A stretch of DNA of 33,907 nt from an uncultured Bacteroidales bacterium (lineage in GTDB: Bacteria > Bacteroidota > Bacteroidia > Bacteroidales > Muribaculaceae): contig CACYQB010000033.1 in assembly GCA_902776435.1 (NCBI GenBank), forward strand, positions 1 to 33,907, given 5' to 3'. A model generated the notes under the pieces. That model was not told where the DNA came from, made no database searches, and saw nothing but the letters and a program-made list of their open reading frames with translations. Shown piece by piece: positions 134-13,990 of this stretch; the stretch's first letter is position 1; each line of letters opens with the position of its first letter. A program made the translations under genes and the position numbers.

Positions 134-1027
134 TTAACTTTCCTCCTTCAGATATAACACAGACTCTCGCAGGTCGATAATCAGCGTGAAATGGTGCCAA
201 ATATCATTACCAATGATGGCAGAGTACACATCACTCGCCATGGCACCCGAGGTGTCGGTGCTATAACGGACTTTCTGCTTTGGTACGGTAATATCGCCTA
301 CCTTAAGTTGCTCAATGCCGAATTCATAGCCGGCAGACTCACCGCCAACACCCCCATGTTTAAAGTGGAACGGGGTTTTATCTTGGATTTTATCCAGTCC
401 AAACTTTCCAGCTGCCTTGCTGGTGAACACAAGGCCACCGCCAGAACCAAGGTCCAGAAGAGCCTTGCCGGGTATTGTATTGCCTGAAGAAACAGTAACC
501 TCAAAGGGCAAAAGAATTCGTCCGGGATGTTTGGGATCTGTTTGTATCGGAATTCGGGAGTAGTTCTTAGTCTGCGATGATGTCAGCCTGTCCGACACTG
601 TGAGTTTACTGCGTTTGTAATCAATGGTGATGAATTTTCCCTTCCACTGACCAAGCCCCAAGATGCCATCGGCCTTATTGCCAAGAATGGCGCGCAGATC
701 AATGATGGGCACCATTTGTGGGGAATACTGCTTTCCTTCCAGCGAGATATTTACTCCGGAAAAAATAAGTACGGTTGGTTTGGTCTCGTTCCCCGCGCCT
801 CGCACCATTGCCTTTCCCATCTGGGAATATTTGACTCCGCTCTCGGCAAGCCATGTGCTGTCCAGATACACATCGGCAGAACCTGTGTCAAAAACAAGGT
901 GTGCAGTTTTCCCGTTCACCTCTGCATTCAGATATATGTGATTGGAAATAAACTCAAAGCTGTGTTCCTGAGCATATAAGGCAGCACTCAGGAGCAATAG
1001 AAAAAAGGTTGAAAGAAGTTGTCTCAT
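134..1027 (-). CDS. Secreted retropepsin-like aspartic protease family protein
   Basis: A 297-aa protein with a cleavable signal peptide (residues 1-20, ending LYAQ). It has two lobes typical of Bacteroidota clan-AA aspartyl protease-like proteins (Asp_protease_2 type). The first has VFDTGSADVYL with Asp47 in a perfect DTG triad. The second has LLDLGSGGGLV with Asp192 in a DLGS context, so the second motif deviates from DTG. It probably acts in the periplasm on an unknown substrate. The start at 1027 is chosen because it begins directly at the signal peptide; a longer in-frame extension would run into the preceding lipoprotein gene. It follows that gene by 40 bp and is probably cotranscribed. 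Whether it is catalytically active with the altered second triad cannot be judged here. Confidence 0.8.
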   Translation of the reverse strand: MRQLLSTFFLLLLSAALYAQEHSFEFISNHIYLNAEVNGKTAHLVFDTGSADVYLDSTWLAESGVKYSQMGKAMVRGAGNETKPTVLIFSGVNISLEGKQYSPQMVPIIDLRAILGNKADGILGLGQWKGKFITIDYKRSKLTVSDRLTSSQTKNYSRIPIQTDPKHPGRILLPFEVTVSSGNTIPGKALLDLGSGGGLVFTSKAAGKFGLDKIQDKTPFHFKHGGVGGESAGYEFGIEQLKVGDITVPKQKVRYSTDTSGAMASDVYSAIIGNDIWHHFTLIIDLRESVLYLKEES

Positions 1028-1067
1028 ATCTTTATACGTCGTTAAATTCCGATTTCTCTGTTTTTTA

Positions 1068-1757
1068 TTAATCAGTTTTGAAGAGAATATGCATATAGTT
1101 CCCATTCTCATAGCCGAAGCGCTGTATGAGAGTGGAACCGTCATAGATAGCTTCCAGTTGCAGAGCGATGCCGTTTTCAGCAAGTGAGCCGAATGCTTTC
1201 GGCTGTTTCAGTTCGTTCTCCGTAAACTTGTAAGTCTGACTGTTGTTATTAAACTCTATGCGGATATGGTGATCGGTATCGCCGTAGTTTAAGTTCAGCA
1301 GCATGACATTGGGGATGAAAGCCCATTTGATGTGCAAAAAGTCCGTGTCGTAGTCGAAGCCATAGCGTGCAGTGATGGCCTGTGGGGAGGCTCCGGCGAG
1401 TGCATGGCTCAGCCCTTCATCCGCATCCACGACCTTTGAAATCAGCGAAACGGGGAAGTCTTGAAAGAATACATGCAGCATCTTATTGTCAGACACATCA
1501 ACTTGCACGTCACCGAAGGCTTCACTATGAGCAACCGTTATAGGTCGACCCGCCTCGTCTTTGCCTTCGATACAATCTTTGTTTTTGTATATAATGACGT
1601 ACTGGCCAGGATATTCGCCCGAAATATTCTGCGCATAGGTCTCCTTTTGTTTGTTCGTCAACCGCTTCACAACATCGTCTTCGTTGCTGCAAGATGCAAG
1701 GGAGAACAATGAGAATAATAGTAGGATAAATCCTAAATACTTTAACTTACTTATCAT
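1068..1757 (-). CDS. Lipoprotein of unknown function (DUF4840-like)
   Basis: A 229-aa protein with a type II signal peptide and a lipobox ending in Cys23 (FSLASC). SNEDD follows, an acidic stretch of the kind that directs Bacteroidota lipoproteins to the cell surface. The rest is soluble and rich in beta-strand-forming sequence, with NISGEYPGQY near residue 45. That resembles the DUF4840 family of Bacteroidales lipoproteins, though I am not certain of the family. It is the first gene of a probable two-gene unit with the retropepsin-like protein 40 bp downstream. No TAnnTTTG promoter was found immediately upstream. Function is unknown. Confidence 0.7.
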   Translation of the reverse strand: MISKLKYLGFILLLFSLFSLASCSNEDDVVKRLTNKQKETYAQNISGEYPGQYVIIYKNKDCIEGKDEAGRPITVAHSEAFGDVQVDVSDNKMLHVFFQDFPVSLISKVVDADEGLSHALAGASPQAITARYGFDYDTDFLHIKWAFIPNVMLLNLNYGDTDHHIRIEFNNNSQTYKFTENELKQPKAFGSLAENGIALQLEAIYDGSTLIQRFGYENGNYMHILFKTD

Positions 1758-1783
1758 GGCTCTAATTTTAATATTACTACTAA

Positions 1784-2053
1784 TTAACGTTGGCCAAATG
1801 CAATTATTATGCTACCTGAACTTGTTTTTGAGCGATAGTCGCCTTTAAGTCCTCGCTCTCCTGGACCGTCACCTACGGCTGGTTTTCGGGTGATCATGCC
1901 GAAGATGTCGAGGTTCTGGGGACAGTCGGCCAGGGGCAGTTCAATCTCCATGCTGTAGTCGTCGGCGTCGGTGAAGATGCGGTTCTCCGATACGTACTCT
2001 ATCGAAGACCCCTTCTTCAGCGCTGCCTGCTTTCCGTTTATCGTCAGTATCAT
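1784..2053 (-). pseudogene. Chimeric prophage tail remnant (N-terminus of one tail gene joined to tape-measure 3' fragment)
   Basis: The open frame encodes 89 aa but appears to be a junction of two pieces. Residues 1-57 (MILTINGKQAALKKG onward, with SIEYVSENR and ELPLADCPQNLDIFG) look like the N-terminus of a protein encoded beside tape-measure genes in Bacteroidales phages. From about 1886 down to 1800 the DNA instead aligns with the tape-measure remnant near 6020-6085. In a shifted frame it reads QP*VTVQESEDLKATIAQ against QPQVIVHESKDLKDIIAR there. The fused tail of the ORF is therefore out-of-frame debris, and the frame ends with stop codons in both readings. A promoter inside a palindrome stands just upstream, so it may still be transcribed. 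Confidence 0.6.
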
Positions 2054-2058
2054 AAAAT

Positions 2059-2097
2059 AGCGGTTGATTTACTTAATGCAAAGGTAAATCAACCGCT
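2059..2097 (-). repeat. Perfect 14-bp inverted repeat enclosing a -7 element
   Basis: AGCGGTTGATTTAC (2059-2072) and its exact complement (2084-2097) flank an 11-nt spacer. The minus-strand promoter element TACCTTTG (2086-2079) starts inside the right arm. This could be an operator over the promoter of the phage-derived ORF at 2053, or a stem at the 3' side of the receptor gene that ends at 2160. No T-run follows the stem, which argues against a simple terminator. Confidence 0.7.
2079..2086 (-). promoter_or_regulatory. Promoter -7 element TACCTTTG
   Basis: Exact match to the Bacteroidota -7 consensus TAnnTTTG, 26 bp upstream of the ATG at 2053. It is overlapped by the palindrome described at 2059-2097. 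Confidence 0.55.
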
Positions 2098-2159
2098 TTA
2101 TGCTGAGAAAAGACGGAACCGTTTTTTTTCCCTTGCGTGAAACTAGCTATTTCTTCCCC

Positions 2160-4217
2160 TCATCGGGTTATGATTCCATTATCAGTATCACTTAGATTGA
2201 TGGTTTTATCTGCCGACTGATGCTCCCGGCCTTTGCTCAATCGCCATGAAATGTTAAGTGACAGACTGTTTCCACCATCTCTACTGTAGTGCACCATGTG
2301 CTTGTAAAGATTGCGGTTCAGGATCTCGCTTTCTGTGGACTTGTAGCTATTGATGAAAGGATTAGACCATGTGAGTGAGAATTGCCAATCCCCATAGTTG
2401 TAGGAGCATTGTAAGATTGTATTAGCTCCGTTATATGCCTTTGTCTCTCCCTCTAAGAATCGAAAGCCATTGTCCGCAAAAGCCAATAAAGTGAATTTTC
2501 CGAGATAAGCTGTGACACCTGCCGAATAGAACCACGATGTATAGCAATGCGTATAGTCAAAGCCATAGTTGAAGCAACGCATCATTCCTCCGTTTGCATA
2601 AATTTGTAGCTTCTCAGGTGTAATCCAATAACTTGCGTATGCCATTGTATTCAATACGTTAATAGCTTTCTGATTTATCTGTGTATAGATGAACTTGTCA
2701 TCAGCGGTGCGCTCGTAGTGCGCCATATTGGGTTTATTGCAATGGCGGTAGAACCCTTCGGCAAATGCACTCCAGCGTTCATCGTTATACGACAGACGCA
2801 ATGTATGTTCTGTGTCACGGGACGGCTTGAGGCTGGGGTTACCCACAATATATTCCATGCTGTTTGTCTGAATTGTTGCATCGCTGATCATGGCAATGCG
2901 CGAAGCACGGTCTTTCATCTCAAAGGTGTAGTTTAGTTGCATCCCATTCATGATACCATAAGCCAGCGTCGCCTTGGGGCGGAATGTCCAGAAGTCATAG
3001 TTGTGCTCATTTTGATTGTAGTGGATGTAGCTTGTTCCCAAACCAAGAGAATAGCGTAAACCCTTGAGCCAACCTTTTATCTCGCTGAACGCATAGACAC
3101 TATTCTGATTCAACTCTGTCAGGGCAAAGGCATCGCCCGTATAATCATTATTTGTGTATTTATAGCGATAGTTCACACCAGCAGATAACGTGAATGGGTT
3201 CAGTCGGTTTTCGTAGATTATTTCAGATAAAGCAGAGACGGTCTTGCCATTTACATCATATTGATAAGGAGCTCCCTCATCGTAGTAATTGCTGCTCTTG
3301 GTGGCTATGTATGTGCCAACAGCATTTGCCGTGACTGACTGACGCGGAGTGAGTTGGCGGAAGAAGTACAAGTCGAGGACAGGTGAGTTGGACTTGCCGC
3401 TCTCTTTGTTGGTTGATCGATATCGGTTTGTGCCATCAATGATGTCTTTGACCGAATAATTGCCTGGAGTTTTATTCAGACTCTCACTCAAGGATGCCTG
3501 AAAGACGTATGCTGTGGAATCCGCCAGGTTGTAGGTCAGCTTCACGTCATGGCTGCGGGCTTTTCTGAGCGTCTCTACATCATCACGCTCTATAGCATAG
3601 ATGTCATCATTATTCAGGGTGTATTCTGCCAACTCAGTTGCCTTTATTCCTTTCAATTGATGACCGCTAAAATTGTAGGAAAGAGTAAACTCACTTTTCT
3701 TGTGGTTCCATTTACCATACACCGTTCCATCACCTTGCCAAGAAGTGAGCGTGGGAGTGACGTCAGCGCCTAACGTATAACCAGTGTCATCGCGCTTGGT
3801 GATGATGTTGATGACGTAGGCCACGTCTTCCCCATAACGCACACCAGGATTATCAACGAAGTCAATCTTGCTGATGAGTTTGGGGTCAAGCGCCAACATT
3901 TCCTCTTTGCCGACGATGATGCCATTGATTCTAAGTTGTACACCGCCTCTGCCATCAATTGCAGTTACAGAATGTGCCACATTATCAATACGGAGGTTGG
4001 GCAACGAGAGTTTCTGCAGGAGGCCAAAACCATTGTTTGAGGCATCCTTCTGGGCATCTGTAGGATAAATCATCTGGCCGTCAGCCTTGCTTACAACCTT
4101 GGGAGCGTTGACAATGACTTCATCAAGAGTGACAGTCTTGTCCTCATTCTGAGTAAACGCCTGGAAAGGACAAAGACAAAGGATAACGAAAAATAAAAAT
4201 AATTGTTTCATTTGCAT
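2160..4217 (-). CDS. Outer membrane beta-barrel receptor (OMP_b-brl_3 / TonB-receptor-like)
   Basis: A 685-aa protein with a signal peptide (ending AFTQ near residue 23), a plug-like domain at about 28-150 and a long beta-barrel. The plug begins with VTLDEVIVNAP and contains GGVQLRINGI and VRYGEDVAYVINIITK, as in the outer-membrane beta-barrel family PF14905. No SusD-like partner is present, so the substrate is unknown. It probably imports a small ligand or peptide with TonB. Either of two in-frame ATGs (4217 or 4211) could be the start; the second begins the more typical MKQLFLFF. It lies 103 bp downstream of a membrane-anchored winged-helix regulator. The gap holds PhoB-like direct repeats, a promoter and a palindrome over the start, so regulation by that neighbour is likely. 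Confidence 0.85.
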   Translation of the reverse strand: MQMKQLFLFFVILCLCPFQAFTQNEDKTVTLDEVIVNAPKVVSKADGQMIYPTDAQKDASNNGFGLLQKLSLPNLRIDNVAHSVTAIDGRGGVQLRINGIIVGKEEMLALDPKLISKIDFVDNPGVRYGEDVAYVINIITKRDDTGYTLGADVTPTLTSWQGDGTVYGKWNHKKSEFTLSYNFSGHQLKGIKATELAEYTLNNDDIYAIERDDVETLRKARSHDVKLTYNLADSTAYVFQASLSESLNKTPGNYSVKDIIDGTNRYRSTNKESGKSNSPVLDLYFFRQLTPRQSVTANAVGTYIATKSSNYYDEGAPYQYDVNGKTVSALSEIIYENRLNPFTLSAGVNYRYKYTNNDYTGDAFALTELNQNSVYAFSEIKGWLKGLRYSLGLGTSYIHYNQNEHNYDFWTFRPKATLAYGIMNGMQLNYTFEMKDRASRIAMISDATIQTNSMEYIVGNPSLKPSRDTEHTLRLSYNDERWSAFAEGFYRHCNKPNMAHYERTADDKFIYTQINQKAINVLNTMAYASYWITPEKLQIYANGGMMRCFNYGFDYTHCYTSWFYSAGVTAYLGKFTLLAFADNGFRFLEGETKAYNGANTILQCSYNYGDWQFSLTWSNPFINSYKSTESEILNRNLYKHMVHYSRDGGNSLSLNISWRLSKGREHQSADKTINLSDTDNGIITR

Positions 4218-4246
4218 CGAACATTTTTTTTGATTTTCGATGCAAA
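4211..4246 (-). repeat. Perfect 10-bp inverted repeat spanning the start codon and -7 box
   Basis: TTTGCATCGA (4211-4220) and TCGATGCAAA (4237-4246) are exact complements with a 16-nt spacer. One arm contains the first ATG of the receptor gene (4217); the other overlaps the TACCTTTG promoter element. It could be a dyad operator. If transcription starts about 7 bp past the -7 box, most of the second arm is not in the mRNA, which favours a DNA site over an RNA hairpin. Confidence 0.6.
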
Positions 4247-4250
4247 GGTA
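4243..4250 (-). promoter_or_regulatory. Promoter -7 element TACCTTTG for the receptor gene
   Basis: Exact TAnnTTTG match 26 bp before the ATG at 4217. A convincing TTTG -33 element is missing, which fits a promoter that depends on an activator bound at the direct repeats 33-65 bp further upstream. Confidence 0.6.
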
Positions 4251-4282
4251 TTACCGAATCAGAAGAGTGTCAGAAATTCTTA

Positions 4283-4315
4283 CCTGACATTTGCCTGACA
4301 TTTGCCTGACAACGA
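4283..4315 (-). promoter_or_regulatory. Three 11-bp-spaced direct repeats, candidate PhoB/OmpR-type binding site
   Basis: On the minus strand the motif TGTCAGG occurs three times in a row separated by CAAA, giving an 11-bp period (plus-strand units begin at 4283, 4294 and 4305). Tandem 7-bp half-sites with 4-bp spacers on an 11-bp period are the geometry bound by PhoB/OmpR-family winged-helix proteins. The neighbouring regulator (4321-5019) carries just such a domain. The site lies upstream of the receptor promoter, a suitable place for activation. Confidence 0.65.
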
Positions 4316-4320
4316 CCTAT

Positions 4321-5019
4321 CTATTTGAGTTTCAGTGCGTAGCTTCTACCTCTGTCCGACTCAATTTTCAGGTTACTATAGGCTTCTAAGATGGGTTTCA
4401 CTCGTTTGATAAGCGTGTAAAGCGTATCGCTGGCATTGGGTTTCTTGGGCCACAGGCGGTCACAGATTTCTTGCTTGGAGAGTGAATGAGATTCTGTCAT
4501 CATAAACATCTCCATAAGGCAGTGCTGCATCGGAGTAAAATGAATGGGTTCACCTTTTGCGGTAATGAATTTGTCGTTGGCAAATACAATGCCACCATAA
4601 CTCAGTGCTTCTGCAATCATCTCAGGCTTAACCCTGCGCATATACCACAGGCTGCACATCATCCATAGAAGGCCGGCAAACAACAATGCCCCGGATGCCC
4701 GCTGGTCAGAAAGCGCAAGTATGGTCAAAACGTCGCAATTAGCCTGTGCCACCATCTGAGTTTCCTGTCGGCCAGCCCTGCTCACGGATGTCATGGCAAT
4801 GCTGGCAGTGTTTTTTAGTTCGGCGATGGTGAGATGACTACGATAACAGCGGATAGTATCGGCATTGATCACGTCTGTCGGCATCTCGGCAAGAGTAAGC
4901 TTCAGTGCATTGTTTACATCTCGTGTTATCCCCTTTTCAACACTTTTATAGCTGCACACACTTGAACATAACGCACAAAGCATTATGAAAACAAATATGA
5001 CAAAAGGAAGTTTCTTCAT
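4321..5019 (-). CDS. Membrane-anchored winged-helix transcriptional regulator (ToxR-like topology, OmpR/PhoB-type domain)
   Basis: A 232-aa protein. Residues 5-23 form an N-terminal hydrophobic segment. About 24-107 are a predicted extracytoplasmic region. Residues 108-127 (ALLFAGLLWMMCSLWYM) form a second membrane helix followed by RR. Residues 152-232 resemble a C-terminal Trans_reg_C winged helix: FTPMQHCLMEMF, then SKQEICDRLW, then TLYTLIKRVKPIL and a basic end SDRGRSYALKL. This suggests an inner-membrane one-component sensor that detects a periplasmic signal and binds DNA directly. There is no receiver domain. It is encoded just upstream of an outer-membrane receptor, which it probably regulates. 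Its start codon overlaps the stop of a 47-aa ORF (ATGA), so its translation is likely coupled. Confidence 0.8.
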   Translation of the reverse strand: MKKLPFVIFVFIMLCALCSSVCSYKSVEKGITRDVNNALKLTLAEMPTDVINADTIRCYRSHLTIAELKNTASIAMTSVSRAGRQETQMVAQANCDVLTILALSDQRASGALLFAGLLWMMCSLWYMRRVKPEMIAEALSYGGIVFANDKFITAKGEPIHFTPMQHCLMEMFMMTESHSLSKQEICDRLWPKKPNASDTLYTLIKRVKPILEAYSNLKIESDRGRSYALKLK

Positions 5020-5159
5020 CTGTCTGAATTCTTAATGGTATTCAACATTTCAATCATTTTCTTTACATATGGCAATGCACAGCGGAAACCCTCTGGCATG
5101 TCATCATTCGCAACCCGTGAGAGACATATCGACAAGTATGATATAAGGAATACTCTCAT
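5016..5159 (-). CDS. Small ORF (47 aa) translationally coupled to the regulator
   Basis: An ATG at 5159 opens a 47-codon frame starting MRVFLISYLSICLSR and ending LNTIKNSDR. It is too short for usual gene callers. Two features support it: a TACCTTTG promoter element 23 bp upstream, and a stop codon that overlaps the regulator's start as ATGA (5019-5016). The N-terminus is hydrophobic enough to be a weak membrane or signal segment; the C-terminal half is polar and helical in appearance. I do not recognise a family. It could be a leader peptide coupling regulator translation to cell state, a small partner of the regulator, or a gene remnant. Confidence 0.5.
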   Translation of the reverse strand: MRVFLISYLSICLSRVANDDMPEGFRCALPYVKKMIEMLNTIKNSDR

Positions 5160-5181
5160 TGAATAAAGGTGTTTGATCTTG

Positions 5182-5189
5182 CAAAGGTA
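5182..5189 (-). promoter_or_regulatory. Promoter -7 element TACCTTTG for the small ORF and regulator
   Basis: Exact TAnnTTTG match, 23 bp upstream of the 47-aa ORF start at 5159. It is the only clear promoter for the regulator gene and lies directly beside the phage debris that begins at 5205. Confidence 0.6.
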
Positions 5190-5204
5190 AACATAATTCT
5201 GCTA

Positions 5205-5321
5205 TTTTCTCTTAGATTTCGGTGATTTATTGACTTCGTCTTCAATGCTGACGCTCGGCAATATTCATGCAAGCATGACATTGCGCTCGTTTACTCGCAT
5301 TGGTGTTCATGAGGCGCTGGT
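5205..5321 (-). pseudogene. Fragment of phage tape-measure 3' end, interrupted by a repeat
   Basis: Positions 5205-5232 match 5900-5927 at 27 of 28 bases, and 5306-5321 match 5928-5943 at 15 of 16. In the second place the two blocks are contiguous and encode the end of the tape-measure remnant (RLMNNKSPKSKRK, stop). Here they are separated by 73 bp (5233-5305). This is therefore a second copy of the same gene end, broken by an insertion. The rest of the stretch down to 5407 shows no gene. Confidence 0.65.
5233..5305. repeat. 73-bp insertion within the tape-measure fragment
   Basis: The sequence interrupts the duplicated gene end precisely. It contains a near-palindromic CATGCAAGCATG core region and the string GCTCGGCAA, which recalls the GCTCGGCAAAG string in the repeat at 6119-6182. 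It is probably a small non-autonomous mobile or palindromic repeat. Clear target-site duplications are not seen. Confidence 0.5.
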
Positions 5322-5407
5322 GTTTGCTCAGACTTTTATAATTTTGGTATAAGTTGCTCAACCGCGTATGCCTTGAAAAGACGTACCGATAAAATGGAAT
5401 TTATAGG

Positions 5408-5836
5408 CTACGACTCATATACATTCTCTTTCTTGAAACGTGCTATTTCTTCATCTGAATCGGTCTTGTACCATATCATTTCAGATTTGTTTATTTTAAT
5501 ATCAACCTCAAGATAGATTTGGGATTTCCCATCATGGGTTTTCCCTGTAAAGATATTCATGTGTCCTGTTTCTCCGACCCTGTAGTTGAGGTCGGTTACA
5601 GTCCACCCTTCATCGGGCCAATTTGAGACAGACTTTTCGATACGTCCAGAATATGAGGTTTCTGGGAAGAATTGATACAATTCCATCCCACCATCCATAA
5701 TTCTGTCATCAATCACCTTTTTCCAAACGCCTTCAAGCTTACTTGAATCAAAAGGCTCATCGTCACCGCATGATGTGAATCCTAACAGGACAGCAATCAA
5801 TAGAATAGAAATTTTTGATAGTAGTTTCATAAACAT
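5408..5836 (-). CDS. Small surface lipoprotein, lipocalin-like
   Basis: A 142-aa protein with a type II signal peptide and lipobox LGFTSC, then GDDEP, an acidic surface-export type signal. The mature part begins KLEGVWKKV, typical of lipocalin-like or DUF-type Bacteroidales lipoproteins that open with a GxW motif, followed by predicted beta strands. Two in-frame ATGs (5836 or 5830) are possible; the second gives the more usual MKLLSKIS. A TACCTTTG element lies about 30 bp upstream. It stands alone between two tape-measure fragments. Function is unknown. Confidence 0.75.
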   Translation of the reverse strand: MFMKLLSKISILLIAVLLGFTSCGDDEPFDSSKLEGVWKKVIDDRIMDGGMELYQFFPETSYSGRIEKSVSNWPDEGWTVTDLNYRVGETGHMNIFTGKTHDGKSQIYLEVDIKINKSEMIWYKTDSDEEIARFKKENVYES

Positions 5837-5866
5837 TCTTACTGGTTTTCGTAGTTTTTAATGCTG

Positions 5867-5874
5867 CAAAGGTA
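5867..5874 (-). promoter_or_regulatory. Promoter -7 element TACCTTTG for the small lipoprotein
   Basis: Exact TAnnTTTG match 30 bp upstream of the ATG at 5836. It sits next to the 3' end of the upstream tape-measure pseudogene, within about 35 bp of its stop codon. Confidence 0.6.
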
Positions 5875-5899
5875 GCAAAAATCATGCCTAAACACATCA

Positions 5900-6425
5900 T
5901 TTTCTTTTAGATTTCGGTGATTTATTGTTCATAAGGCGCTGGTACTCGTCCTGCGCCTGCTTGATGCCCTTGTCGCCGGTCACGGTGTTGACGGTGACGA
6001 AGGGCTCGTCCAATCGCTCGTTGAGACGGGCGATGATATCCTTCAAGTCTTTGCTCTCATGGACTATCACCTGCGGTTGGCTTTGGGCCAGAGCCATCGG
6101 CGCGGTGATTGACCTTGAAAATTGGTGCAAGGCGAGCGCAGAGGCAAACTCGCTTGCACTTTGCCGAGCCGCAGCCCAATTTATGCACACGTCGGCACTG
6201 CGGAGCGAGCCGATCGTGTTGGTGCGCTGCGCGTAGTCCAGAGCCTCGATCAGAGGACGGGCAACGGGTGAAGCGACCAGTTTCTGACTCGCCACCCATT
6301 CCGGGCCTGGCTCGCCTGCTGCTGCTTCTTGATGGCGGCCACCTGCATGGCACCTGCAGCCACTGCCATGGCAGCGGCTATAGGGGCGATGATAAAACTT
6401 AGCGTCTTGTCGTGAGGCCCCTGCG
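5900..6425 (-). pseudogene. Phage tail tape-measure protein, C-terminal remnant with frameshift
   Basis: The 3' part reads EWVASQKLV, ARPLIEALDYAQRTNTIGSL, then SRSITAP, QPQVIVHESKDLKDIIARL and DEPFVTVNTVTGDKGIKQA, ending KSPKSKRK. These are features I associate with the C-terminus of Bacteroidales phage tape-measure proteins. Upstream, in another frame, 6410-6310 reads IIAPIAAAMAVAAGAMQVAAIKK and QQQASQA, the Ala-rich segment that should lie just before it. The two frames do not join and the glycine-rich linker between them is missing, so there was a frameshifting deletion near 6300. A 64-bp repeat is inserted in frame at 6119-6182. No other intact phage genes are nearby. Confidence 0.65.
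6119..6182. repeat. Small palindromic repeat inserted in the tape-measure remnant
   Basis: The block begins AAATTGG and ends CCAATTT, a 7-bp terminal inverted repeat. It holds further internal hairpins (GGCAAA with TTTGCC; GCAAGGCGAG with CTCGCTTGC). In translation it adds about 23 residues between SADV and SRSITAP, where the flanking parts otherwise read on. The sequence resembles repeats scattered in Prevotella-type genomes; I know this only from general familiarity. Confidence 0.55.
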
Positions 6426-6632
6426 CATGGAAAAAAGGAAAATAATAAGTACAATAAATACTATACTATCCATCGAGGTGCAATATTGAAGACAAGAAAC
6501 ACAAGAAACACAAATTTATTGATTATCAAATAAATATAAAATTGTCCTTGTTGTCTTTCTTGTCTTCTTTTCTTTATCGGCCGGAATGAAAAACAGCTAG
6601 CAATAATAAAAAACTTTACGTCTTGTCGTGAG
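6394..6632. repeat. Pair of short direct repeats flanking the junction of phage debris
   Basis: CGTCTTGTCGTGAG occurs at 6403-6416 and again at 6619-6632, each preceded by an AAACTT-type stretch. The string AAACTTTACGTC (6611-6622) recurs at 31821-31832, and a relative CGTCTTAGCGTGAG at 31909-31922. These are short dispersed intergenic repeats. The stretch 6455-6661 between them holds no convincing gene. Confidence 0.5.
6488..6567. repeat. Dispersed intergenic inverted repeat, copy 1
   Basis: A 26-nt arm beginning GAAGACAAGAAAC (6488-6513) pairs with 6542-6567 at 22 of 26 positions around a 28-nt AT-rich loop containing ATTGATTATCA. The same left arm, one base different, and a similar loop recur at 33749-33819. 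The mismatched positions differ between the copies, while the fold is kept. Confidence 0.7.
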
Positions 6633-6718: not shown

Positions 6719-8785
6719 TTACTTGATTTTCAATTTCAGCCCAATGACAAGCATGCGTCCCGGTGAGTACAGGGCATACTTGCGGTTGGAGGAGTCAATA
6801 CGGCGGTCCACTTTGTTAAAGATGTTGTCAATACCGATGCTCGGCTCCAGATAAAGGTGCTTCAACCCGTCAAACGAGTGGGTTGTGTTCAGGTTCCAAA
6901 TACCATAGCCTGGGGCATCCTCATAGTCGGGATAATAGGTCTTGGATTGTAGCCTTCCGTTCACGTTCACGTTGAGGCCGTAGTTACCCCAACTGTGGTA
7001 ATAGTTGGCAGCAACGGTGGCGGCGTTGCGGATGCTGCGCTCCAGCGGTGTCCATTGGTCTCCGCTGCAGGTTCGGGCATAGGTGTAAACGTAGTTGGCC
7101 GACAGATTAAAGCCGTTGAAGAGGTTGGCCGATACGTTAACCTGCACGCCCTTGACGTCGCCCTTGTCACTGTTCTTGTACAGCGAGTAGCGCTCCAGTT
7201 TCTGTGCCTGGTCATCGGTCATCTCGGGAAATTCGGCTTGTAGCATAGCCAGCGAGGCGGCGTCCACGTCGATGTTCTCCCTGATGACCATGTCGTTGAT
7301 GCGGTTCATGAATCCCGTCACACTCACTGCAATCAGGTTGGTGCGGTACTCGGCGTTGAGCGAGAAATAGTTGCTCTTCTCGGGTTTGAGTTCCTTGTTG
7401 CCGAAGATGATTTGTGCTTTGCCGCGGTTGACCGAGAAGTAATGGTAATACAACTCGTCAAGACCTGGCGCGCGGAAGCCGGCCGAATAGGTGGCACGAA
7501 GGCGGAAGTTGCCTGGAGCATACATCAGCGTAGCCTTGGGTGTGAGGTGCCAGTTGAAGGTCTCATGATAGGTAAGGCGCAGGCCCACCGTGGCGGTCAA
7601 GCGGTCAAAGAAAGTCATCTCGTGCTGTGCAAAACCGGCTGCCGTATAGACATTCTGGTTGATGTCGCCTGAGGTGGCGGTCAAGTAATCTTTACGCCAG
7701 TCGGCACCAAAGATAGTGGTGGAGTTTTTCATCAGACCCAGAATGGCTTTCAACTGGCCTTCCATCGAGCGCTGCTTTTTGGACTGCACGTAGTCGTCGA
7801 TAGCGTAGGTCTTGGTGGCCACGTCATACTGCTTGCCGTAGCGGAAACGGTCAACCGTGAAATCGGCCTGCAACGAGTTGCGGCTCGTGAACTTGTAGAT
7901 ACCGCCCACGTTCCAGCGCAGACCCTTGTAGCGCATCTCATAGTCGTTGCCTCCGGTGATGTCTTTGCGGGTGTTGGGACGGTCGGTGATCTTATAAGAG
8001 TAGTCGATGCCGGCATTCAGTGCGAGATGCTCATTGGGGGCATAGGTGAACTTTTGTCCCACGAGGTTTGCACGGTAGCCCGTGAAGAACGGGGCAATGG
8101 TCGGTTGTGTCTCGGTTTCCGAGCCCTTGACATATTCCACATCGTTGATGCGGTAACTGTCGGCACGATCACGCGAAAATGAGGTATAGGAACCGAATCC
8201 GTTTTTGTAGATATCCAGGGCAATGTTCTCGGTCAGTTGGCCATGACCGGACACGCGCGTGTCACTGGTCACACTCACCAGATCGCGTGTAGGCTGGTCG
8301 GTGATAATGTTGATGACACCGGCAATGGCGTCCGAGCCGTAGAGCGACGATGCTGCACCATCGAGCACCTCGATGCGTTTCACGCGCGCCATGTTGATGC
8401 GGTTTAGGTCCACATTGTTGGAGATGTCGCCCGTCAACTTTTGACCGTTAATCAAGATAAGGATGTACTTATTTCCCAAGCCATTCAAGCGCAGGAACGT
8501 GCCCATCGAGTTGGGTGCCATCGACACCTGCGGCATCATGCGGGTCAGTGCACCGTCAAACGTGGTGATGCCTTGCTCCTTGATTTCCTGGCGGCTGAGC
8601 ACATGGACTGGCGTGGCGGTGGATTTCAGGCGCTGGTGGTGACCAGAACCGGTCACGACCACGGGATTCAAGGTATAAGAGCGGCTCATCGTCGATGAGT
8701 CGCTGCGTTCCATCTTGTGGATTTGTGAAAATGTGGCACTCCACGTGAGGAGCGCCGCGGTAATCAATATTATTCTCTTAGTCAT
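6719..8785 (-). CDS. TonB-dependent receptor (BtuB/IhtA-like), last gene of cobalamin-riboswitch operon
   Basis: A 688-aa outer-membrane receptor with a signal peptide (ending ATFSQ near 21). The plug domain has LNPVVVTGSG, then FLRLNGLGNKYILILINGQK and ASSLYGSDAIAGVINIITD. The 22-strand type barrel carries the conserved PGLDELYYHYF segment and a C-terminal LVIGLKLKIK ending in basic and hydrophobic residues. It is a paralogue of the 715-aa receptor two genes upstream; the plug motifs are nearly the same. The likely ligand is a corrinoid or other tetrapyrrole, given the riboswitch and the CbiK-like neighbour. It starts 99 bp after the cbiK-like gene, across a large inverted repeat, and ends at a strong terminator. 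Confidence 0.85.
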   Translation of the reverse strand: MTKRIILITAALLTWSATFSQIHKMERSDSSTMSRSYTLNPVVVTGSGHHQRLKSTATPVHVLSRQEIKEQGITTFDGALTRMMPQVSMAPNSMGTFLRLNGLGNKYILILINGQKLTGDISNNVDLNRINMARVKRIEVLDGAASSLYGSDAIAGVINIITDQPTRDLVSVTSDTRVSGHGQLTENIALDIYKNGFGSYTSFSRDRADSYRINDVEYVKGSETETQPTIAPFFTGYRANLVGQKFTYAPNEHLALNAGIDYSYKITDRPNTRKDITGGNDYEMRYKGLRWNVGGIYKFTSRNSLQADFTVDRFRYGKQYDVATKTYAIDDYVQSKKQRSMEGQLKAILGLMKNSTTIFGADWRKDYLTATSGDINQNVYTAAGFAQHEMTFFDRLTATVGLRLTYHETFNWHLTPKATLMYAPGNFRLRATYSAGFRAPGLDELYYHYFSVNRGKAQIIFGNKELKPEKSNYFSLNAEYRTNLIAVSVTGFMNRINDMVIRENIDVDAASLAMLQAEFPEMTDDQAQKLERYSLYKNSDKGDVKGVQVNVSANLFNGFNLSANYVYTYARTCSGDQWTPLERSIRNAATVAANYYHSWGNYGLNVNVNGRLQSKTYYPDYEDAPGYGIWNLNTTHSFDGLKHLYLEPSIGIDNIFNKVDRRIDSSNRKYALYSPGRMLVIGLKLKIK

Positions 8786-8799
8786 GTGTGTTTACATTT

Positions 8800-8874
8800 A
8801 AACTACGAATTACGCAAATTGAACGAACGCTTCACCGCGAAGCTAATTAGTAAAATTCGCGTAATTCGTAGTTT
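8800..8874. repeat. 16-bp perfect inverted repeat in the intercistronic gap
   Basis: AAACTACGAATTACGC (8800-8815) and its exact complement (8859-8874) bracket 43 nt that include a smaller hairpin, GCTTC-ACCGC-GAAGC (8830-8844). It fills most of the 99-bp gap between the chelatase-like gene and the second receptor. It may be a small mobile repeat. As RNA it would form a long stem that could alter expression of the downstream receptor. Confidence 0.75.
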
Positions 8875-8884
8875 TGAATTGAAT

Positions 8885-9979
8885 TTACTCGGGATTCTTG
8901 CTGTGATAGAAGTCCAGAGGATCACCGTTGATAGCGTCGGTGGTGTGGTTCATCCACACTTGACGGATGGTGGGGAGTTCCAGCAGACCTTTCTCGATCA
9001 TGGTCGAGTTGTTGCACTCATAGCCCAGGTGGTGGAAGTACATCTTCCAGGAGGTGTCCTCAACCTCACCCTCGTCGTTGGGGGTGAACTTCTCGCCGTC
9101 CCAGTTGTCGTCATCGTCACCTGCCATATCGTTGTGGCCGTGGTCACCGTCGATCGACATCAGCGGGTGGCAATATACCTTACCGCTGGTAATGCCGGCA
9201 GCAAGCATGCGCTCATAGACATCGGTCTTGAAGTTGTCCATCATGTCAACAGTGCCCACGAAGTAGTTCTTGTTGTACTGCTGGAGGGCCTCCTCGAGCT
9301 GGGTGTAGCGCACGTTGGCCTTATAGGTGTCATAGGAGTCAGGGTTACCATGGCCCATAAAGGCAACGACACCATCATTAGCCTTGTCTTTATAGAGTTT
9401 GTTCAATTCGCTGGCAACGAGATTAACGTCGCTTTCGGCATCCTGCAGCAGGGGCACACCTAACTTGAGGTCAACAATCGACAGGTACTTGTCGCTGATG
9501 TCACCGTTGGCATTGTTGGCGAAGTCCTTGATGTAATTGATTACGCGGGTATATTCCTCACCGGGAATAACCTGCAGCGATTGTACAACGATTTCCATGT
9601 ACTCAACCTCGGCAAATGCGTTGAGCCAGAAGGGAGGAGCATAGAAGTTGCGGGGATCAACGTTCTCACCGGCAGCAGCGCGGTTGATGCAGATGGCTGA
9701 TGAGAATGACAAGAATACATCATAACCGGGGAAGGCTTTCTTGTAGGCCTCAACTGTGGCATCAAATGCGTTGTAAGCCTGCTCCCAGGTCGAGCCAAAG
9801 GCAACCAGCAGGATAACCTTGTCGCTCTTCTTCTGAGACTTAACGGTTTGGGTAACGGCTTTCTGGTAAATGGTGTAATTGTTCTCGATGGGATCGTCCT
9901 TGTCATCGCTGCAAGAGGTAAAGCCCATCGTCAGGCAGATTGCCATCATGGCAATCAATAAAGATTTAATCTTCATCAT
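8885..9979 (-). CDS. CbiK-like (sirohydrochlorin cobaltochelatase family) surface lipoprotein
   Basis: A 364-aa protein. Residues 1-23 form a lipoprotein signal ending GFTSC, then SDDKDD, a strong Bacteroidota surface-export signal. The body matches anaerobic cobaltochelatase CbiK: ILLVAFGSTW near 57, FMGHGNPDSYD with His210, FVGTVDMM with Asp245 where CbiK is expected to have Glu, and MSIDGDHGHNDMAGD with His280. Both metal-binding histidines are therefore present. Cytoplasmic CbiK inserts Co2+ into sirohydrochlorin. A lipidated, probably surface-exposed version cannot share that pool, so binding or metal exchange of imported tetrapyrroles is more likely, as proposed for IhtB of Porphyromonas. 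Its start overlaps the receptor stop by 14 nt, so the two are translationally coupled under the cobalamin riboswitch. Start could be 9979 or 9976. Confidence 0.85.
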   Translation of the reverse strand: MMKIKSLLIAMMAICLTMGFTSCSDDKDDPIENNYTIYQKAVTQTVKSQKKSDKVILLVAFGSTWEQAYNAFDATVEAYKKAFPGYDVFLSFSSAICINRAAAGENVDPRNFYAPPFWLNAFAEVEYMEIVVQSLQVIPGEEYTRVINYIKDFANNANGDISDKYLSIVDLKLGVPLLQDAESDVNLVASELNKLYKDKANDGVVAFMGHGNPDSYDTYKANVRYTQLEEALQQYNKNYFVGTVDMMDNFKTDVYERMLAAGITSGKVYCHPLMSIDGDHGHNDMAGDDDDNWDGEKFTPNDEGEVEDTSWKMYFHHLGYECNNSTMIEKGLLELPTIRQVWMNHTTDAINGDPLDFYHSKNPE

Positions 9980-12113
9980 TGTTTTGTTGTTTTGAAATGT
10001 TAGACTTATACTTATTAGAAAGTTTCTTTCCTTGGTTGAAGCGGATGGTCAGTGACACATAACCCGTGCGGCCCGGAGTTGTCGTACCTAGATGCAGCCC
10101 GTGAGGCGTGCGGTCGCAGTAGTTGAAGATGTTATCCACACCGGCCTCGATACGCCAGGTGGTCGCCTTGAAGTGGCCCAAGTCATGGGTGGTGGACAGT
10201 CGCCAGGTCTGGTAGCCCTTGCCATTGCCGTCGTCCTGATAATAGCGGGTGCTCGACATGCGGCCGTAGAGGCCTACGCCCAAACGATAGTCGTTGGAGA
10301 AGCGGTGCCCCCATGTGGCAAACCAGTTGCCCTTGTGGTGGGCCATACCGTCGATGGTGACTTTGCGCATCACGTCGTGGTTGGTGTCATATTGGTGGGC
10401 ATCGGTGTCAAGGTAACTGTAGCCCAAGCCGAAGGCGAACTCGCGCCACTGGTAATTGACATTCACGTCAACGCCATAGGTCTTGGCGTCCTCAATGTTC
10501 TGGTATTGGCGGGTCTTCACAGGGTCATACTGGATGATGTACTCGTCAGGGGCCTGATAGTTGGGAATCGTCACCAGGGCAATCATGTCCTTCACTTTAT
10601 TGTAATAACCCGTAGCGGTGATATTCAGACCTCGCCAGCCATACTCGCCGCTCAGCGAGAAATAGTTGCTCGATTGCGGCTTGAGATCGGTGTTGCCTAG
10701 GTAGAGGTAGGTGCCGCTCATCTGGCGCACGTAGCGGTAGAACAACTCGCGGATGGCGGGTGTCTTGAAACCCTGGCTCCAAGTGGCGCGCAGTCGCCAT
10801 GCGTTACCGGGCTTCCACATGGCCGATACCTTGGGCGTCAGTTTCGTGCCGAATTGCTCGTTTTGGTTCAAACGCAGGCCTGCGGTGATGTTCACGTTGT
10901 GGATGAGGTTAAATTCGTCCTGCACATACACGGCCGCTGTCCAGTCGCTTGCCTTGCCGCCTTTAACGCGTGTGGGGGCGTGGAGCCAGTCATAGCGGAA
11001 TTCCATGCCGGTGCTCAGGATGTTCTCATAGGGCAATGTGAACACACCCTTCAGCGCAGCCATCGTGCGTTGCTGGTCACTCTGCAATTCCTTTTGGTCA
11101 GGGAGATAAGGGAAGTAGGGATAGTAGGGGGTGCCGGCACTCTTCTCGTAGTCCTCGACAAGCGTCGTGGCCGTGTAGTAGTAATAGTACGCGTGGCGGT
11201 GCCAGTCCACATCCAGCGAGATATAATCGGTCTTTGAACGGTTCCACTTGCCGCCGACCGATGTCGAACCGTTGTGGTACTCCATGTCCCAGGTCTTCAC
11301 GTCATAGTGGGGATGGCGGCCGCTCACGCGGTAGATGCGTTTCCAGTAGGTGCTTCCTTCGGCATAGAGTTCCAGATTCTTGATCGGCTGGTAGGTCAGG
11401 CGCTCGGCGATTTGCCAGTTGGTGTGACGGTTCACGGTCTTGTTGCGGGAGTCGGTGATGGGAGGTTCAGAGCCTTCGGTATGCTCTACCGTGGTGTTCT
11501 GCCAGCCGTCGCTGTGCTGCAACTGGAAGTTGGTGTAACTGCTGAACTTGCCATAATTCAACGCCAAGCCATTGTGCTGGCGCACGTCACCATAACTGCC
11601 CACGCGGGTAGTATTCTCAATCAACAGGCCCTCCTCGCGGTGCTTCTTGGTGATGATGTTGACCACACCGGCAATGGCGTCCGAGCCGTAGAGCGCACTC
11701 GAAGCGCCCTTCACGATCTCGATTTTATCGATATTCTGCGGGTCGATAAGCGACAGGTCATTCTGACCGCCCACATCGCCATGGATGCGCTTGCCGTCAA
11801 TCAGAATGAGAATGTAGGAGTTACCCAAGCCATTCAGTTGCATTTGGGAACCCATATCATCCTGATTAAAGGCAAACGAGGCCGTGAGGCCACCCAGGAT
11901 GTCCTCGATGCTCTTGCCCGCGTAGTTGCGCAACATTTTACTGGTGATTACCTCGGTCTGTACGGGCGCGTCCTTCAGCAGGTGCTGCGTGCCAGTACCC
12001 GTTACCACCACCTCGGGCAGACTATCCTGCCGCCAGATGTCATTCTGTCCATTGACAGCTGCAAACGTGCATAAAGCCAGCACTGCTGCCGTCAGTCTTT
12101 TTCTTTTCTTCAT
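9966..12113 (-). CDS. TonB-dependent receptor (BtuB-like), first gene of cobalamin-riboswitch operon
   Basis: A 715-aa outer-membrane receptor with a signal peptide (residues 1-22, ending AAVNG). The plug has LPEVVVTGTGTQH, QLNGLGNSYILILIDGKR, and ASSALYGSDAIAGVVNIIT. The barrel has PAIRELFYRYVRQ and a C-terminal half ending GYVSLTIRF, followed by a short hydrophilic extension of about 20 residues (NKYKSNISKQQNN region) beyond the usual terminal strand. A cobalamin riboswitch lies 50 bp upstream, so expression should rise when cobalamin is scarce; a corrinoid is the likely ligand. No BtuG-like lipoprotein is present. Instead the following coupled gene encodes a CbiK-like lipoprotein. Confidence 0.9.
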   Translation of the reverse strand: MKKRKRLTAAVLALCTFAAVNGQNDIWRQDSLPEVVVTGTGTQHLLKDAPVQTEVITSKMLRNYAGKSIEDILGGLTASFAFNQDDMGSQMQLNGLGNSYILILIDGKRIHGDVGGQNDLSLIDPQNIDKIEIVKGASSALYGSDAIAGVVNIITKKHREEGLLIENTTRVGSYGDVRQHNGLALNYGKFSSYTNFQLQHSDGWQNTTVEHTEGSEPPITDSRNKTVNRHTNWQIAERLTYQPIKNLELYAEGSTYWKRIYRVSGRHPHYDVKTWDMEYHNGSTSVGGKWNRSKTDYISLDVDWHRHAYYYYYTATTLVEDYEKSAGTPYYPYFPYLPDQKELQSDQQRTMAALKGVFTLPYENILSTGMEFRYDWLHAPTRVKGGKASDWTAAVYVQDEFNLIHNVNITAGLRLNQNEQFGTKLTPKVSAMWKPGNAWRLRATWSQGFKTPAIRELFYRYVRQMSGTYLYLGNTDLKPQSSNYFSLSGEYGWRGLNITATGYYNKVKDMIALVTIPNYQAPDEYIIQYDPVKTRQYQNIEDAKTYGVDVNVNYQWREFAFGLGYSYLDTDAHQYDTNHDVMRKVTIDGMAHHKGNWFATWGHRFSNDYRLGVGLYGRMSSTRYYQDDGNGKGYQTWRLSTTHDLGHFKATTWRIEAGVDNIFNYCDRTPHGLHLGTTTPGRTGYVSLTIRFNQGKKLSNKYKSNISKQQNNDED

Positions 12114-12163
12114 TTGCTTTCCGTCACACCTGTTCCTGAGTGAACGTACTATTGTTTTTCAAC

Positions 12164-12338
12164 GATGGCAGGTCTTCTGACTTTTCCCCAGTCTGCTTTG
12201 CCTTCCCAGCCTTGTTCTCAGCCAGTGACATTCAGTAAGCAAACCCTGTGTTTGAGGGGATTACAGCTGCAGGTACAGTTCCGGACTTTCACCGGATTCC
12301 CTTGCATCGCGATGGCCCTAAGCCACCCGATTACCATC
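12164..12338 (-). promoter_or_regulatory. Cobalamin (B12) riboswitch
   Basis: On the minus strand the leader contains GAATCCGGTGAAAGTCCGG, then ACTGTACC, GCAGCTGTAATCCCC, a B12-box-like GTCACTGGC and a 3' end GAAGACCTGCC. These are the conserved blocks of the cobalamin class, in order. The ends GATGG (12338-12334) and CCATC (12168-12164) can pair as P1. It precedes the first TonB receptor by 50 nt and should repress it when adenosyl- or related cobalamin binds. The box reads GTCACTG rather than the common GCCACTG. Confidence 0.92.
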
Positions 12339-12418
12339 AATTAAAGTGCAGGTCGAATACACGGCCGAACTTACTCGAGTGCTATTGAGTCGCAGCCTTT
12401 AATATCCAATTTGCGCCG

Positions 12419-12426
12419 CAAAGTTA
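12419..12426 (-). promoter_or_regulatory. Promoter -7 element TAACTTTG for the riboswitch operon
   Basis: Exact TAnnTTTG match about 80 nt upstream of the riboswitch core, in the expected direction. The predicted leader is about 300 nt. Confidence 0.6.
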
Positions 12427-12475: not shown

Positions 12476-13405
12476 TTGAGTATCGGCAGCGGCGAACAAA
12501 GTGCTTTCTACTCTCCTTACGGTGGCTCTCTGACCGTTACTGGTGGCGAAGTTCATGCCTTCGGCGACGGCTGGGGCGCTGTAATTGGTGGCGGTGAGGA
12601 TGCTGACGGTGCCGATGTCAGCCTTACGGCCCGCTATACGGGTATTAATCTTATTTTGGCAGACGATGCTGACAACTCAGAGGTCCTCTACCAGAATAAT
12701 GGTAAGAAAGCGCAGAGCGTCACGCTTATGGGTCGTACGCTTCACAATGACGGCTCATGGAATACCCTGTTCCTGCCATTCTCGCTCACAGCAGAGCAAA
12801 TCGCTGAGAGCCCGCTGGCCGGTGCCGTGATAATGGCGCTCGACAACAGTGCATTTAACGAGGAAACGAGAGAACTGACAATAAGCTTTGCCCCAGCTGT
12901 AAGCATTGAGGCAGGAAAGCCCTATATTGTCAGGTGGGCAGAGGGAACAGATATTGAGAACCCTGTCTTCAACAACGTGACCATCAATAACGCCATAGCC
13001 AACACCTCGACAATCTATGTCGATTTCACTGGCACCTATTCGCCTGAGGTGATCTATAAGGAAGGCTATGTGATGAACAAGCTTTACTTATACGGCAATG
13101 CCCTGTGCTTCCCCACTAGCGAGCAAGCACAGGTGAACGCCTGCCGCGCCTATTTTGAGTTAAGAAACATGGTGATGCCAGGCGATGTGGACGGAGATAG
13201 CCAAATCACCATCGCCGACGTGACCGCTCTCATCGACACCCTCCTGGGCGGGATTGAAGAAAATGCATCAGCCGATGTCAACTTAGACGGTCAAATAAAC
13301 ATATCTGATGTGACCAAATTGATTGACGTTCTCCTCGGCGCAACCTCAATTAGTCCTGTGACGCATATCGAGACCAACGTCGGCATCACCTTTGAATGGC
13401 AATAA
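12476..13405 (+). pseudogene. 5'-truncated secreted protein with C-terminal dockerin type I domain
   Basis: The frame encodes 309 aa but has no signal peptide; it opens only at a TTG (12476), and its first ATG is at 12728. The N-terminal part reads SLTVTGGEVHAFGDGWGAVIGGG, a beta-helix-type repeat that normally continues upstream. A middle domain with WNTLFLPFSL and PYIVRW follows. Residues about 233-289 form a complete dockerin: GDVDGDSQITIADVTALID and ADVNLDGQINISDVTKLID, each with a calcium-binding loop. The 5' part of the gene has evidently been lost next to the riboswitch promoter, which points away. No cohesin is visible in the window. Confidence 0.7.
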
Positions 13406-13586: not shown

Positions 13587-13593
13587 TGCTCTG

Positions 13594-13990
13594 TGGAGCT
13601 GGAGGGGTTTGAACCCTCGTCCAAACGTGGAACTAATAAGGTTTCTACATGCTTAGTCTTGGCTTGGTTTTCGACCGCTGGCAGGCCCAAGACGACCAAC
13701 CGGTGGCTTATCCTCTAAATTTCGGACTTGGCCCGAGGCTTGCCTTGTCCTATCGCCGATATTCCTGCACCACCGTTTCAACCCGCCTCGGCGCGAGGGC
13801 AGTTGGGTGATGTCTCGTCACTGCCCCTTGGGCAGCGATAAAGCCGAACTTACTGTGCTTCGGTTAGGCAGCGAGAGCGTAGTTGTTTTCGCCATTTAAT
13901 TGAGTCAATGACTGAGATTTAAGAGCCATGCCATTATCGCTCTGCATGCTTGCTTACCACCTCTACACGCTGTCAAAGCCAGTCAGCCCC
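13594..13990 (-). ncRNA. ssrA: Transfer-messenger RNA (tmRNA)
   Basis: The roughly 397-nt RNA rescues stalled ribosomes. Its 5' end GGGGCTG pairs with CAGCTCC at the 3' end to form the tRNA-like acceptor stem, and the T-arm contains GGGTTCAAACCC. The resume codon GGC at 13893 begins the tag GENNYALAA, with stop TAA at 13866-13864; this is the tag expected in Bacteroidales. The genomic 3' end reads CTCCACAG, so the CCA tail is not fully encoded and must be added after transcription. It has its own TACCTTTG promoter and a terminator. Confidence 0.96.

Follow-up and report, generated by a model that had tools for sequence, protein, structure and literature searches.

Here we describe an operon on the minus strand of a 33,907-nucleotide (nt) stretch of contig CACYQB010000033.1 (positions 1–33,907; assembly GCA_902776435.1), which belongs to a Muribaculaceae (Bacteroidales) genome of 3.45 Mb that is 95% complete; this whole stretch is referred to below as the window. 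In order, the operon comprises a TAnnTTTG box, a cobalamin riboswitch, TonB-dependent receptor 1 (TB1), a CbiK-family lipoprotein, and TonB-dependent receptor 2 (TB2), and it is the head of a corrin biosynthesis cluster, not a capture system only. We judge it somewhat more likely than not that the operon serves a partial vitamin B12 pathway as its entry module, salvaging a corrin-precursor ring from outside the cell.

Operon layout and linkage to corrin biosynthesis genes

The promoter-like box (TAACTTTG; 12419–12426, minus strand, as for all operon features) was called by its match to TAnnTTTG, which we take to be the −7 consensus of Bacteroidales. The riboswitch aptamer (12150–12348) matches Rfam RF00174 with 79.7 bits (E 2.8e-18), above the gathering score of 31.5, and ends 36 nt upstream of the TB1 start. 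It scores 133.6 bits with our R1 covariance model, of which the window itself is part. Four cobalamin riboswitches were found in the genome; by an arithmetic estimate, the chance of one of four falling within 2.5 kb upstream of the sole CbiK in 3.45 Mb is approximately 0.15%. The gene for TB1 (715 amino acids; 9966–12113) comes first and overlaps by 14 nt (9966–9979) that for the CbiK-fold lipoprotein (364 amino acids; 8885–9979), which is the only gene-sized open reading frame (ORF) on this strand between the receptors. TB2 (688 amino acids; 6719–8785) is a paralog of TB1 at 30% identity, and both have Plug and barrel domains. Receptor specificity was unreadable from PDB relatives, the best match being the colicin I receptor, followed by BtuB and siderophore or haem receptors.

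The link to corrin biosynthesis was assessed in 101 genomes of the window's genus. Of these, 42 yielded the lipoprotein (two of these partial, with matches to the signal peptide only excluded) and 46 yielded CbiD. CbiD occurs in 41 of the 42 lipoprotein-positive genomes versus 5 of the 59 negative ones (Fisher p = 1.6e-21). It lies on the same contig and strand, 7.2–11.4 kb downstream of the lipoprotein, in 31 of the 41 and on another contig in the other 10. Two loci (L098 and L102) have the order TB1-CbiK-TB2-cbiHC-cbiET-cbiGF-cbiJD, with cbiHC directly after TB2. In G020, the sole lipoprotein-positive genome without CbiD, cbiH, C, E, T, G, and F adjoin the lipoprotein on a 10-kb contig (L135). 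Five genomes have CbiD but yielded no lipoprotein; in each of them, the cluster ends at a contig edge no more than 0.8 kb from cbiHC or cbiET, so that the absence may be an assembly gap. These counts, together with the relatives described below, rule out an oddity of a single genome.

In the window's own genome, the corrin genes are on a separate contig, C7 (L095 and L203). This encodes the fusions CbiH-CbiC, CbiE-CbiT, CbiG-CbiF, and CbiJ-CbiD, as well as CbiB, a periplasmic binding protein, CbiP, a PduO-type adenosyltransferase, CbiA, CobU, CobT, and CobD-like and CobS-like proteins. CbiC, CbiG, CbiJ, CobS, and CobD were named by best match, under the equivalog cut-offs. Homologs were thus found in this genome for all later steps looked for, from CbiH to CobT.

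The early steps present a different picture. HemC was found in none of the 101 genus genomes, versus 11 of 14 controls and 12 of 26 other Bacteroidales. No CbiX was found in the window's genome, and only one in the genus (G043, 34.5 bits). The corrin-ring pathway is also incomplete: homologs of CbiH to CbiD, CbiA, and CbiP are present, and CbiL (TIGR01467) exceeded its cut-off in 0 of 101 genus genomes. Weaker TIGR01467 matches in 47 of these (best 47.8 bits) land on CbiH and CbiG-F genes. Six CbiL-type proteins of other Bacteroidales reach 110.8–212.5 bits, with four of them below the curated cut-off of 163.25. The TP-methylases of the window's genome are CbiH, CbiE, CbiF, and, by eye, two RsmI-like proteins; therefore, no uroporphyrinogen-III methyltransferase was seen in this 95% complete genome. 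Since neither HemC in the genus nor this methyltransferase in the window's genome was found, the cell appears incapable of synthesizing the tetrapyrrole ring, and in lacking these early ring genes it resembles a tetrapyrrole precursor salvager.

The CbiK-family lipoprotein and its relatives

The lipoprotein matches PF06180 (CbiK) with 148.6 bits against a cut-off of 26.2, has a class II chelatase fold, and is the only CbiK found in the window's genome. In a hand-counted alignment, His210 (codon 9350–9352), Asp245 (9245–9247), and His280 (9140–9142) correspond to H154, E184, and H216 of Desulfovibrio CbiKP. Both histidines are kept, and Asp replaces the expected metal-site Glu in the window protein and in 90 of 107 collected homologs. 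The invariance of the histidines among the 107 is partly built in because 82 were retrieved with patterns containing the His210 and His280 motifs; the 25-protein sample is a fair test, and the metal-site histidines and catalytic residues are invariant there too. The ratio of nonsynonymous to synonymous substitution rates (dN/dS) is 0.09 over 29 sequences (the window and 28 of 29 genus loci), which indicates purifying selection. Residues 20–29 (9893–9922, minus strand) form a lipobox, FTSC, followed by the surface-export-like signal SDDKDD. By a script rule, 73 of the 82 named homologs have a lipobox, and all 73 have two to five acidic residues after the cysteine. The predicted location of the lipoprotein is the cell surface, on the outer membrane. 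The riboswitch, the 14-nt overlap, and the paralogous second receptor called in an earlier sequence-only reading are all borne out by these data, as are the chelatase-like features it had listed (both metal-binding histidines, Asp for Glu, and a lipobox with SDDKDD).

The leader of the lipoprotein is not unique to it. The signal peptide and first residues (MMKIKSLLIAM.AICLTMGFTSCSDD) of a GldK/SUMF1-like lipoprotein on contig C16 of the same genome (L204:5178–5978, plus strand; NCBIfam matches weak and under cut-off) are almost identical, as if the leader had been exchanged between the two. Similar N-terminal matches occur in several genus genomes.

The contig scan that collected named relatives used two patterns in which the motifs of His210 and His280 are included; the figures below refer to the best 80 of 593 confirmed relatives, more of which exist, and this set partly overlaps the genus set. 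Most are rumen Bacteroidales metagenome-assembled genomes (MAGs), and among them are Xylanibacter ruminicola, Prevotella koreensis, Porphyromonas bennonis, P. somerae, and P. pasteri. In 77, the gene immediately upstream of CbiK encodes a TB1-type receptor, and of 74 receptor-lipoprotein junctions measured, 63 show a gene overlap of 11 or 14 nt. Many riboswitches escaped a simple B12-box pattern, so all 80 loci were scanned with a purpose-built covariance model; Rfam agreed with it in five of five loci checked. A same-strand riboswitch lies upstream in 75 (2.0–2.6 kb away in 66 and 4.4–4.7 kb in nine), including that of P. somerae, which was also in the training set of the model (L074). Two others are cut by contig ends ahead of a possible riboswitch. 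A CbiL-type gene is in the flanks of three, and many flanks are short. The X. ruminicola MAG locus (L164) has the order riboswitch-TB1-CbiK-TB2-cbiHC. In two genomes, a second, Glu-type CbiK (L071:16944–17879 and L197:15659–16594) accompanies an Asp-type lipoprotein CbiK located behind TB1. The Glu-type protein has a signal-like N terminus without a lipobox by the script rule, and its own cluster is led by a riboswitch and a TB2-type receptor.

An unrooted tree of 62 rows was made from 34 of the 82 named proteins, 24 order-level proteins, the window protein, and three partial PDB chains; L158 and L184 were excluded for wrong start codons. The midpoint root is for drawing only, the long branch of Salmonella CbiK meets five Glu-type rows, and five rows are of odd composition. 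A branch with 100/100 support separates all 42 Asp-type rows from FetB, CbiKP, CbiK, and the Glu-type proteins. FetB (a partial chain) groups with the L076 proteins (99/97), which rules out orthology of the window protein with FetB/IhtB. Judged from this tree, the Glu-to-Asp change marks a lineage separate from FetB/IhtB.

Of the 26 order-level genomes, 19 had their gene neighborhoods examined (all but G224, G252, G318, G396, G418, G473, and G488). HemC is absent from all six with an Asp-type lipoprotein behind TB1 (G273, G409, G156, G437, G348, and G199), one of which, G156, has an additional Asp-type copy without a lipobox by the script rule. In G182 and G465, an Asp-type CbiK has neither lipobox nor receptor, HemC is present, and a methyltransferase is nearby. 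Of seven genomes with a Glu-type lipoprotein CbiK beside a TonB receptor, six are HemC positive and one is negative. The lipoprotein-receptor arrangement therefore does not need ring auxotrophy, and the idea that a lipoprotein CbiK always denotes such auxotrophy is refuted.

The sequence-only reading had suggested that the operon would be a distinct version relative to IhtB and had asked whether riboswitch-linked lipoprotein CbiK forms its own clade. The first suggestion has to be given up, since the arrangement recurs in Bacteroidales and riboswitch linkage also occurs outside the Asp type. The second holds in part: the Asp-type proteins do split off, but riboswitch linkage is not confined to them. 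FetB, a lipoprotein beside a TonB receptor, still stands as a precedent but not as an ortholog, as it groups with the Glu-type proteins across the main branch.

A probable insertion and other features of the window

Past TB2, where relatives carry corrin genes, the window has instead an aspartyl-protease-like ORF, a repeated ORF, a regulator C-terminal-domain ORF, and unknown ORFs (134–6454, minus strand). The repeated short ORF (SSIEYVSENRIF...; 1784–2053, minus strand) is near aspartyl-protease-like ORFs, and further copies, apparently truncated at differing points, occur at L095:2–514 and at L100:10247–10501 and 11584–11868. The repeat left of TB2 recurs at the start of C7 (93% over 126 bp) as well as inside an insertion between TB2 and cbiHC in G052 (L100). 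We infer that an insertion split the B12 cluster in the window's genome.

Between CbiK and TB2 is a 28-nt imperfect inverted repeat (86%; 8800–8874), possibly a small dispersed palindrome; a 40-nt piece has a second copy (90%) between cbiHC and cbiET of the same genome. The window also has a transfer-messenger RNA gene (13591–13990, minus strand; 130.6 bits) and two proteins with dockerin type I domains (12476–13405 and 21161–23518). A 2060-amino-acid protein downstream of another cobalamin riboswitch (L007:8675–14857) has an end that resembles dockerin proteins by eye.

Proposed function and comparison with known systems

The genes, riboswitch, linkage, co-occurrence, undetected genes, conserved active site, and purifying selection were computed here; what we infer from them is a surface location, cobalt insertion, a substrate, and passage through the receptors and the inner membrane. 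Facing outward on the outer membrane, the CbiK-type lipoprotein would bind an external tetrapyrrole ring and probably insert Co2+ using His210, Asp245, and His280. The cobalt-containing ring would be handed to the overlap-translated TB1, and perhaps also to TB2, and then enter the cell, where it could be completed by CbiHC, CbiET, CbiGF, CbiJD, CbiA, CbiP, CbiB, CobD, CobU, CobS, and CobT. The riboswitch would turn the module off when cobalamin is plentiful. As the genus yielded no CbiL, the incoming ring is expected to carry the C20 methyl group from the outset (factor III type); sirohydrochlorin could serve those relatives in which CbiL adjoins the module. Corrin producers release factor III when starved of cobalt.

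If cobalt is inserted at the surface, this would account for several traits of the sole CbiK/CbiX-type chelatase detected in the genome: its surface signal, its translational coupling to a receptor, its co-occurrence with corrin genes, and the cobalamin riboswitch that precedes it. The fullest version of the proposal, an outside-in B12 synthesis in which cobalt is inserted at the surface into C20-methylated isobacteriochlorin (factor III type) or sirohydrochlorin made by others, imported by the TonB pair, and finished by a truncated pathway, is put forward tentatively. The sequence-only suggestion of surface tetrapyrrole capture or cobalt exchange under cobalamin control fits the data, but it did not anticipate that the operon heads a corrin biosynthesis cluster (CbiD in 41 of 42).

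Several observations weigh against salvage of a precursor ring. The lipoprotein scores 109.2 bits against the 400 set for the sirohydrochlorin cobaltochelatase equivalog NF047852 (NCBIfam), and the change from Glu to Asp at the metal site might weaken catalysis. A C20-methylated ring, the substrate predicted without CbiL, would be unusual, and an unrecognized methyltransferase could exist. The check on early genes covered HemC in the genus and the uroporphyrinogen-III methyltransferase in the window's genome. The corrin genes of this genome are on another contig, apparently behind an insertion. The riboswitch was not found in P. bennonis, P. koreensis, or P. pasteri, within 21 kb or less of sequence each, and the HemC-positive Glu-type genomes above point the same way.

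The CbiK-fold lipoprotein could alternatively bind cobalamin, cobinamide, or other corrinoids at the surface and pass them to the receptors in the manner of BtuG, BtuH, and BtuJ, with no chelation involved. Corrinoid uptake typically involves TonB receptors and a cobalamin riboswitch, and Bacteroides employs several surface corrinoid binders (PMC12751083). Riboswitches are, however, present in all 101 genus genomes, which weakens a plain cobalamin-uptake reading, yet among the 42 lipoprotein-positive genomes, CbiD occurs in 41 and other corrin genes in the remaining one. Behind another riboswitch, the window's genome encodes a BtuB-like receptor (TIGR01779, 111 bits, below its cut-off); the lipoprotein after it looks like BtuG by eye and matched no NCBIfam family. 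TB1 and TB2 are only 24%–28% identical to this BtuB-like receptor, over part of their length. With the metal-site histidines of a chelatase invariant as well, we regard capture of corrinoids alone as unlikely.

A haem or metalloporphyrin system like FetB/IhtB, in which the lipoprotein binds haem and swaps or removes its iron, with the product entering through the receptors as a source of porphyrin, seems more doubtful again, given the cobalamin riboswitch, the tight corrin-gene linkage, and the position of FetB across the main branch of the tree. Disruption of a B. fragilis cbiK gene, not necessarily one of the Asp type, left haem-iron use unaffected, according to a passage that cites the result as unpublished. 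The absence of HemC and above-cut-off CbiL in the genus and of the methyltransferase in the window's genome, together with the split cluster, would suit a cobalt scavenger that loads or carries the metal for import, or a decaying relic of a once complete pathway, but the low dN/dS, invariant catalytic residues, homologs of all later steps looked for, and the reported strong cobalamin response of apparently the same operon in X. ruminicola make either very improbable.

If precursor salvage is correct, then trade in these communities extends beyond finished corrinoids to B12 precursors, and Bacteroidales counted as non-producers may complete B12 from the rings of others. Many rumen bacteria that are seemingly unable to build the starting ring head their B12 cluster with a surface-predicted protein of cobalt-inserting type and two import channels. 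Outside-in synthesis, if true, would add a new kind of cross-feeding, based on cobamide precursors, and would supply the Bacteroidales corrin pathway with its missing entry point.

Salmonella CbiK and CbiKP of Desulfovibrio vulgaris act on sirohydrochlorin produced by the same cell. Both have a Glu ligand, and neither is a surface lipoprotein: CbiK (PDB: 1qgo) is cytoplasmic and CbiKP (PDB: 2xvx) is periplasmic according to its PDB title. FetB/IhtB of Porphyromonas gingivalis (PDB: 9b86), an outer-membrane CbiK-like protein, shares the CbiK fold with the window protein (32% identity over the aligned fold), and a review describes it as exchanging metal in porphyrins at the surface (PMC13402209). 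It differs in its metal-site Glu, its place outside the Asp-type group, and its study in the context of haem and iron. The BtuBG, BtuH, and BtuJ systems of Bacteroides also have cobalamin riboswitches and pair a TonB receptor with a surface lipoprotein (PMC12751083); here, the partner beside the receptor is a chelatase-fold protein and not one of BtuG type, and the operon is tied to biosynthesis.

The closest published parallel is in X. ruminicola KHP1, where a cobalamin riboswitch (291,423–291,608) precedes a six-gene operon of four cobalamin biosynthesis and two TonB genes; on cobalamin, the operon ranks with the seven genes whose expression differed most (the passage gives no direction for these genes), and partial synthesis from precursors was suggested (PMC11575231). 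The likeness extends to the riboswitch, the two TonB transporters, the biosynthesis genes, and the strong cobalamin response. Judging from L164, a MAG of the same species, the KHP1 operon probably is the TB1-CbiK-TB2 module; by term search, the words chelatase, CbiK, and lipoprotein are absent from the main text of that paper. Judged by titles and the openings of abstracts, none of the papers listed for surface uptake of sirohydrochlorin, or for CbiK with Prevotella and TonB, deals with such uptake. Shelton et al. define tetrapyrrole precursor salvagers and verify users of 5-aminolevulinic acid (PMC6461909). The passages of that paper trace the "enigma of cobalamin biosynthesis" in P. gingivalis, corrin genes without the steps to precorrin-2, to 2000 (Roper et al., cited in PMC6461909), and predict tetrapyrrole uptake or a new pathway for such bacteria, with the importer unnamed. 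The window's genome resembles these salvagers in having corrin genes apparently without ring genes and differs in that CbiL was not found either and that a candidate importer and chelatase are tied to the pathway. For rumen and gut Bacteroidales, the module provides a specific candidate that is conserved, regulated, and marked by an active-site signature, and with it a possible solution to the Porphyromonas enigma that can be tested.

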